NCBI GenBank assembly: GCA_009839615.1
Contig: VXPH01000190.1
Coordinates: 1-37,474, forward strand
Direction: 5' to 3'
Source: Nitrospinota bacterium
Lineage (GTDB): Bacteria > UBA8248
Length of the DNA: 37,474 bases
A model generated the notes under the pieces. That model saw nothing but the letters and a program-made list of their open reading frames with translations, searched no databases and had not been told where the DNA came from. Below, piece by piece: positions 12,547-14,745 of the stretch (positions within the stretch are counted from its first letter, which is position 1; every line of letters starts with the position of its first letter). The translations under genes were made by a program, and so were the position numbers.

Positions 12547-12867
12547 ATGGAATGTACGCTTTTAGAAGCACCCGTAGACTGTCATTTCGCATCGAAAGGC
12601 TCCAATGGGCAAAACCAATGCTCATACAACGGAAGCTCCTGCTTCCCCGTCGTCGAGGAATGCCTTTCGGGCGATGACGAGAAAGCATGCGAGCACATCC
12701 TGGAGTTTCCAAAAGGAAAGTACTGCTCTAAATTTCCAAATCCGGAAAATCGCTGGGAACGCGGCAGATGTCCCCTTGCGACGCATATTAAAGTGGACTT
12801 CGAGGCCCCTCTGGAGAAGAAACTCAACCCGCTGAAAGCCTCGAAACGAGCTGCGCGAGGAAATTAA
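12547..12867 (+). CDS. PxxKW-type small cysteine-rich protein
   Basis: A 106-residue protein that I recognise as the small cysteine-rich 'PxxKW' family of Deltaproteobacteria-like genomes, with no known function. The resemblance covers the N-terminus (MECTLLEAPVDCHF), the middle (CSYNG and YCSKFPNP) and the C-terminal tail KLNPLKASKRAARG. Eight cysteines suggest a metal or Fe-S site. The eponymous P-x-x-K-W reads PENRW here, with arginine for lysine. AGGAG stands 10 bases before the ATG. It is a single-gene unit ended by a strong hairpin, between nitrogen-control genes and the IspH fusion. It has no signal peptide, so a cytoplasmic location is likely. Confidence 0.75.
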   Translation: MECTLLEAPVDCHFASKGSNGQNQCSYNGSSCFPVVEECLSGDDEKACEHILEFPKGKYCSKFPNPENRWERGRCPLATHIKVDFEAPLEKKLNPLKASKRAARGN

Positions 12868-12958: not shown

Positions 12959-14677
12959 CTACGCCACCAGAAGAGCCAAAACACCTGCAACAATGAAAAT
13001 CTGATCGGCGGCCACTTCCATGAGCCCGCTATGGCCCAGTATTTTTCGGGAATACCAGTATAGGCATGCGCCCGCGTACATGACCGGAACGAGCATCACG
13101 TAGCCGAACGACGAAGACACCCACCCGTTTATCGTGGCGCTAACGAGAGCAGCAGCTAACGCGGCGCAGACCGCCCCCATAAGCGCTTCGGTTTGCGCTT
13201 TGCCGAAAACAATCGGCAAAGTCCTCTTGCCCACGATTCTATCGCCTTGAATGTCTCTCAACTCCATCAAACCGGTTCGGAAGAAAATCAAACCGAAAGC
13301 GACGAAAATCGACACTACCCAGCCCGTGGAAATCGCTTGAGAATTCGCCAGCGCGGGCAAACCCGCCATGCTGAAGGTCCAACCCGATGCGAGAACCAAA
13401 ATCTTCAAAGCCGGGAGATTCATCACCCGCCCGACGAGTGCGCGAGGCTCGAGCTTCAGACTGCAAAAGATGGCCCAAACAAGTCCGGCCACCATAATGC
13501 CCCCCGTCAGGTAGGAGATACTCACTCCGAACGCGATGGATACCAAGGCGGCGACCCCGGACAGGGTCAACAGAATGGGTTTGTGCTTTTCATAAAAAAG
13601 AGCCCGATTGGGTTCATTGTATCTATCCGCCTCATAGCTGACACAACGATTTATCGTATGAGCCGCGAAGAGATAAAGGCCTGCCGTCAAAGCGAGTTTC
13701 ATCGAGAGAGAGAAACCACCCAATTTCGCCATAGCGATGCTACCCAGCAACGCGGATAGGAAAAGAAGAGCATTCGCTCGAGACAAGACCTTGAGAATAT
13801 CAAAAAGCTTATCTGCGATATTTGGATTCGGATCGGGAATCGCCTCGATACGGTTGACAACGCGCCTGATCATCCAATCCGGCGTAGAGGCGCCTGCCGT
13901 TACGGCGATGTTCTTGTATTGCTGCAGGAATTTTTCGTCAATCTCATCTTCGGTTTCGATGAGAATCGAATCCGCGCCTCCCTCCTTCGCTACTTCCACC
14001 AAGCGGTTTGTGTTGCCGCTGTTGCGGCCTCCGACGACGACCATCAGATCGACATCGGGTGCTAATTTCTTTACCTCTTCCTGACGAACCTCTGTCGCAT
14101 CGCAAATGGTATTGAACATTTGCGCTTGGGGGTATTTCCGCAAAATCGCTTCTTCCACACCTTTCCACTCGCGCATGTTGATAGTTGTTTGTGCGACCAC
14201 GACAACAGGTCGGTCGCCGATGTCCGGGAGCCCGGGCACATCTTCCATACACGTTATCAGGTGGCTACCGGCTTCCGCGTAGCCCTTGTGGCCATCCACC
14301 TCCGGGTGGCCTTCTTCTCCAATAATTACTGTGAATGCACCCATGCGGGAATGCTTTCTGATGACCCCATGCACTTTGGCTACCAGAGGGCATGTCGCAT
14401 CCCTGATGCCGGCGCCCGAACCTCTCAAGCGATCACGCACCTGCGGCGATATGCCATGCGCCCGGATAACGACCAGACTTGTATTGCTCGGCGTTTCCTG
14501 GGGGTCGGAAACGAAAACGCTTTTCTGCTCCAGCAATTCCACCGTTTGCGGATTGTGAATCAACGGCCCATGCGTGAGAACTTCGCTGGATGCGTCATTG
14601 GCCGTGTCCAAGGCTATATCGAGCGCTCTTTCCACTCCCCAGCAGAAACCAGCCGTCTTCGCTAGCTTGACTCTCAA
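12959..14677 (-). CDS. ispH: IspH (HMBPP reductase) fused to a UbiA-type prenyltransferase
   Basis: A 572-residue two-part protein. Residues 1-280 are a complete IspH, the [4Fe-4S] enzyme that makes IPP and DMAPP at the end of the MEP pathway. Its cluster cysteines are C12, C96 and C192, and IRAHG, EEGHPEV, AQTT, GGRNSGNT and TAGASTPDW are all present. Residues 290-572 are a hydrophobic UbiA-superfamily domain with about eight membrane segments. The second aspartate motif is intact (D475/D479 in RDIQGDRIVGKRTLP). The first motif reads N343-S347-D351, with serine at the usual middle aspartate. The start is TTG with AGGAGG seven bases before it. Family knowledge suggests that one half makes isoprenoid units and the other transfers a prenyl chain. 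That the halves cooperate is inference. No stop or frame change separates them. Confidence 0.9.
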   Translation of the reverse strand: MRVKLAKTAGFCWGVERALDIALDTANDASSEVLTHGPLIHNPQTVELLEQKSVFVSDPQETPSNTSLVVIRAHGISPQVRDRLRGSGAGIRDATCPLVAKVHGVIRKHSRMGAFTVIIGEEGHPEVDGHKGYAEAGSHLITCMEDVPGLPDIGDRPVVVVAQTTINMREWKGVEEAILRKYPQAQMFNTICDATEVRQEEVKKLAPDVDLMVVVGGRNSGNTNRLVEVAKEGGADSILIETEDEIDEKFLQQYKNIAVTAGASTPDWMIRRVVNRIEAIPDPNPNIADKLFDILKVLSRANALLFLSALLGSIAMAKLGGFSLSMKLALTAGLYLFAAHTINRCVSYEADRYNEPNRALFYEKHKPILLTLSGVAALVSIAFGVSISYLTGGIMVAGLVWAIFCSLKLEPRALVGRVMNLPALKILVLASGWTFSMAGLPALANSQAISTGWVVSIFVAFGLIFFRTGLMELRDIQGDRIVGKRTLPIVFGKAQTEALMGAVCAALAAALVSATINGWVSSSFGYVMLVPVMYAGACLYWYSRKILGHSGLMEVAADQIFIVAGVLALLVA

Positions 14678-14745
14678 TCGTATCCCTCCTGACCGAGCAA
14701 AGTGAACGCAATATACGTTTCGGCTCCCAAAATCATCATTTGCAC

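Follow-up and report, generated by a model that had tools for sequence, protein, structure and literature searches.

An IspH–UbiA fusion of Nitrospinota with a broken first and a retained second aspartate motif in its membrane half

IspH, the HMBPP reductase, catalyses the last step of the MEP pathway. Its fusion to a UbiA domain has been known since 2015, when Rao et al. described 47 such proteins, mainly from Desulfobacterales and all said to be in sulfate-reducing anaerobes, noted two DXXXD repeats in the UbiA part, and proposed membrane localisation with a local supply of IPP/DMAPP, through channelling or recruitment (PMC4746011). Three of the fusions were tried for expression, and no full-length active protein was obtained (PMC4746011). 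The initial annotation of the locus studied here, which knew of no characterised example, had thus overlooked an architecture already described, and our literature search found no later characterisation of IspH–UbiA fusions after Rao et al. Two other systems resemble it in part. In the IspH–RPS1 fusion, IspH likewise carries a fused C-terminal domain, but the partner is ribosomal protein S1, which is soluble and RNA-binding. UBIAD1, a GGPP sensor controlling HMG-CoA reductase (PMC9314443), is a UbiA-family protein with a physical link to an enzyme of isoprenoid synthesis; there, however, the partners are separate polypeptides, eukaryotic and belonging to the mevalonate pathway, so that the parallel is a functional analogy only.

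The present gene lies in a window of 37,474 nucleotides (the whole stretch of DNA that was analysed) at positions 12959..14677 on the minus strand, its frame running from 14677 to 12959 with the stop included. The 572 codons plus stop (572 aa) open with a TTG start, upstream of which lies a Shine-Dalgarno sequence, AGGAGG (14685..14690, minus strand), that is conserved in the nearest named relatives. Start and frame are the same in the relatives, the named ones being mostly MAGs of Nitrospinota and Candidatus Tectomicrobia, and the TTG is kept in every named full-length copy, nearly always with a Shine-Dalgarno-like sequence. As first annotated, IspH runs uninterrupted into a UbiA-like domain, with Pfam LYTB followed by UbiA in one frame both here and in relatives. 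Since the source genome is split over 280 contigs and has metagenome-assembled genomes among its relatives, one might suspect that an artefact of assembly or annotation had joined two genes; the same junction, however, recurs in 15 phylum genomes and 27 others and is present in the literature as well, so this reading is already refuted and retains virtually no probability. A sequencing accident at the junction (frameshift or missed stop), flagged in the annotation as one finding that would refute its claim, was ruled out in the same way, the frame being continuous in 15 of 18 phylum genomes and in others outside.

An architecture search covering taxonomic spread recovered the fused frame in 15 of the 18 genomes of the Nitrospinota/Tectomicrobia-type phylum, two of the 15 running off a contig end; in a sixteenth genome (G011) a contig edge leaves just the UbiA end. 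Outside the phylum the fusion is present in 27 of 368 sampled bacterial genomes, representing 23 families: 22 were found with a Nitrospinota UbiA-domain profile (E <= 1e-15), all in frames of 578–637 aa with IspH, three divergent ones through long IspH frames, and two with a broader profile. The broader profile also reaches several standalone UbiA-like proteins, which softened a candidate statement that this UbiA domain is never unfused. Relatives with two separate genes were looked for, and no fission into ispH and ubiA was seen. Two genomes of two genera (G010 and G012) do have an unfused IspH, with no UbiA of the fusion's group in either, but it comes from another IspH lineage, set on a long branch, and fission was rejected as an explanation. 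In the IspH tree, all the fused sequences group together behind a single branch with SH-aLRT 94 when set against unfused IspHs picked by score and long frame, not randomly (99 with fewer outgroups), a topology that fits a single origin of the fusion but does not prove it. Nearest to the Nitrospinota group are the fused IspHs of G221, G080 and G351 (SH-aLRT 96), all three with DsrA. Within genus g92, one genome (G103, L150) has an unfused IspH and another (G243, L100) the fusion; the two IspHs lie far apart on the tree, and gene replacement is likely. A contig in a bin named Gammaproteobacteria (L064, COS1_bin_8) carries a UbiA end that is 83% identical and is probably a misbinned Nitrospinota contig.

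The Nitrospinota host family differs from the hosts of the Rao et al. fusions in its respiratory genes. DsrA exceeded the cut-off in five of 31 genomes tested, none of the five being Nitrospinota, and in none of nine Nitrospinota-type genomes, seven of which have the fusion; COX1, a heme-copper oxidase of the aa3 type, was found in all nine (E 1e-141 to 1e-154). Since the tested Nitrospinota carriers have an aa3-type oxidase and no DsrA over the cut-off, the fusion extends beyond sulfate-reducing anaerobes and the published restriction fails. The oxidase genes denote a capacity for oxygen respiration, not the actual lifestyle. This corrects the published picture: fusions are spread over many bacterial families, among them lineages with the equipment for oxygen respiration.

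The IspH half is complete, in agreement with the initial annotation. Its domain (13844..14671, minus strand; residues 3-278) matches Pfam LYTB (E 1.5e-88), TIGR00216 (295.9 bits, over the cut-off of 187.85) and Aquifex IspH, 3dnf (E 3.6e-65). The three cluster cysteines, C12, C96 and C192, are all present, together with the active-site residues H41, H74, H124, E126, T165, S220, N222 and S264, and cysteines and active-site residues alike are invariant among 28 fusion representatives. A check for a second ispH in the window genome found none, and IspG is present. With the half complete, single-copy and accompanied by IspG, IspH activity should come from the fusion protein, and reduction of HMBPP to IPP/DMAPP by it is very likely.

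The UbiA-superfamily membrane domain (13049..13762, minus strand; residues 306-543) scores 57.9 bits against Pfam UbiA PF01040 (cut-off 34.2, E 1.3e-15). Nine long membrane helices lie beyond residue 298 in the predicted structure model, whose confidence is moderate (mean pLDDT 71), and poor for residues 410-422 and 478-490; the count of eight segments given earlier was not borne out. Foldseek aligned this half with 4od4 (TM 0.72 by target length), 7bpu, 4tq4 and 6m31, and the IspH half with 3dnf. The protein shares its fold and the second Asp motif with archaeal ApUbiA/AfUbiA and digeranylgeranylglyceryl phosphate synthase (DGGGP synthase), the systems behind those four entries; unlike them it does not keep the first motif, NDXXDXXXD, and identity in the fold alignments is 12-17%. 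No NCBIfam model of a named bacterial or archaeal prenyltransferase family was over its cut-off (best PRK12884, 38.8 bits versus 269). Sequence matching of the PDB with a Nitrospinota-only UbiA profile found no UbiA, and a broader UbiA profile matched DGGGP synthase weakly. The genome, when checked for ubiA/menA, proved to hold two other UbiA-family genes: one, next to COX1, encodes a heme O synthase (TIGR01473 over cut-off), and the other, next to ubiD, a UbiA-like polyprenyltransferase of the ordinary kind (TIGR01475 over cut-off). In this the locus is like the fusions of Rao et al., which also have UbiA on the IspH C-terminus and separate UbiA/MenA-type genes elsewhere.

In AfUbiA, one Mg2+ is held by N68 and D72 and the second by D198/D202, and D76 lies too far away to bind directly; GPP binding was abolished in the D72A mutant, and MenA requires the equivalent residues for its activity (PMC4106721). 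The first Asp-motif region of the window protein (13625..13651, minus strand; residues 343-351, NRCVSYEAD) reads N343-R-C-V-S347-Y-E-A-D351, the N-x-x-x-S-x-x-x-D pattern noted from the outset, and departs from the catalytic NDXXDXXXD in having R344 and S347 where the motif has Asp. Profile alignment with the ordinary UbiA-like paralogue in the genome pairs S347 with that protein's first-motif Asp, at the AfUbiA D72 position; the doubt that the serine had raised about catalysis is well placed, as it replaces the equivalent of a direct Mg2+ ligand (PMC4106721). This position is S or G in all Nitrospinota copies. The second motif (13241..13255, minus strand; D475-IQG-D479) is an intact DxxxD, as annotated, and aligns to that of DGGGP synthase 6m31. 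At the YxxxK region the window has F404-C-S-L-K408 and Y is common at 405 in relatives, the alignment being loose there.

At the D72 position, the 30 fusion representatives compared, which include three from Nitrospinota, have D in 14 cases, E in eight and neither in eight; at the N68 position, 23 have N and seven another residue. The D198 position (475) is acidic in 26 of the 30, R467 is kept in 28, and D479 (the D202 position) and G483 are invariant. On the IspH tree, at least four changes are required to explain the acid at the D72 position, and none for the D202 position; the first metal site has thus eroded repeatedly in the fusion family, and the second has not. The full NxxxDxxxD is kept in two fusions, L096 and L110. 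Whereas the fusions of Rao et al. were described with two DXXXD motifs, the window protein keeps the second only, its first being without the metal-binding Asp; since the trait fails in many other fusions too, two DXXXD motifs do not define this kind of protein. The published picture also needs correcting here: in the UbiA part, a broken first metal-binding motif is common.

The reading we favour, and to which we give about half of our confidence, is that the UbiA half is a membrane tether for IspH with a retained but altered ligand site. The sole HMBPP reductase of the cell is made as a single chain with a nine-helix UbiA-superfamily domain, which would hold IspH on the cytoplasmic side of the membrane, where membrane enzymes would draw on the IPP/DMAPP it makes; an isoprenoid or diphosphate ligand would still be bound by way of the second Asp motif. 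With its first metal site broken, the UbiA half would not be an ordinary Mg2+-dependent prenyltransferase, and little or no ordinary prenyl transfer is predicted, just as membrane localisation and ligand binding are. Coverage of heme O synthesis and ordinary polyprenyl transfer by separate genes counts for tethering, as do the complete, single-copy IspH, the nine-helix UbiA fold and the purifying selection on the membrane half. Judged by the alignment, attachment and the second Asp motif, rather than first-motif chemistry, are the common denominator of the fusion lineages, because D479 and G483 never vary and the D72 and N68 positions do. Of the two roles first proposed, membrane recruitment is therefore preferred, and channelling to an active prenyltransferase is less likely because the first motif is broken phylum-wide and decays in several ways elsewhere.

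Several observations count against tethering. With an acid at the D72 position in 22 of 30 fusions and the full motif in L096 and L110, some members of the family may be catalytic; conservation within the membrane domain of the Nitrospinota copies is highest in the two motif loops, which an inert anchor would not need; and another acid, E349 or D351, could serve as metal ligand. That the UbiA half is instead an active, unusual prenyltransferase, with the fusion raising local IPP/DMAPP (the Rosetta-stone channelling of Rao et al. 2015), draws on the same 22 acids, on the intact second motif, on a first-motif loop nearly invariant in Nitrospinota apart from the S/G position, and on UBIAD1, whose first motif (N102TYYDFSKG) is without the last Asp and which is an enzyme all the same (PMC9314443). 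In the window protein, however, the residue lost is not the last Asp but the direct Mg2+ ligand, the D72 equivalent. The product of IspH is C5 units and UbiA enzymes normally take longer prenyl diphosphates from a separate synthase, so that channelling would be indirect at best. Nor is any acceptor or neighbouring pathway conserved around the fusion in other phyla: in the gene neighbourhood across phyla, no gene besides the fusion recurs widely, and no function emerged from context. We rank this reading second, after tethering, and regard it as rather unlikely.

Substitution rates bear on a further reading, that of a plain membrane anchor without ligand in which the UbiA fold is a leftover. 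The UbiA half has dN/dS of 0.06-0.22 versus 0.01-0.12 for the IspH half, several-fold higher in most pairs; the membrane half is under purifying selection, maintained but less tightly than IspH. This laxity and the motif decay in several lineages are what a plain anchor would lead one to expect, but the invariance of D479 and G483 (30 of 30), the near-invariance of R467 (28 of 30) and the strong conservation of the Nitrospinota loops argue against it, and we give it a small chance. Ranked third is a non-catalytic prenyl diphosphate sensor feeding back on IspH as UBIAD1 does on HMG-CoA reductase (PMC9314443). A ligand site that is eroded in part while its second motif stays invariant, and a physical link to the pathway enzyme that is retained in every sampled lineage, would suit such a role; on the other hand, D72A in AfUbiA abolished GPP binding (PMC4106721), and similar erosion in standalone UbiA-like proteins suggests that erosion is not tied to IspH. 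By analogy, then, a sensor is quite improbable, and it is slightly more doubtful still that a catalytically dead isoprenoid-diphosphate sensor within IspH would form an integral MEP feedback device, contained in one polypeptide and of an origin independent of UBIAD1. Should the membrane half prove not to be an enzyme, the fusion would be nature's own example of bringing a soluble Fe-S enzyme of isoprenoid synthesis to the membrane, perhaps with product sensing as well, and would bear on control of MEP flux in bacteria and on membrane-tethering designs for terpenoid production.

Standalone UbiA-like membrane proteins that have lost the first Asp motif and kept the second were observed at L171:3545-4486 (-), L172:3369-4244 (+), L174:4177-5169 (-), L175:4216-5115 (+) and L178:2735-3622 (+), and may represent a wider group of half-motif UbiA relatives. 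In three genera of family f21, IspH carries a cytidylate kinase fused at its N-terminus (L158:2278-4092 (-), L161:1341-2945 (+) and L162:1707-3275 (+)), and a separate multi-repeat protein resembling S1 lies directly downstream; a CMP kinase–IspH–RPS1 fusion is known from Ca. Arthromitus, according to Rao et al. (PMC4746011). In the window itself, a small cysteine-rich protein of the PxxKW family (12547-12867, plus strand; NF038144 over cut-off) is encoded convergently with the fusion gene, between it and glnB-glnD-glnA.
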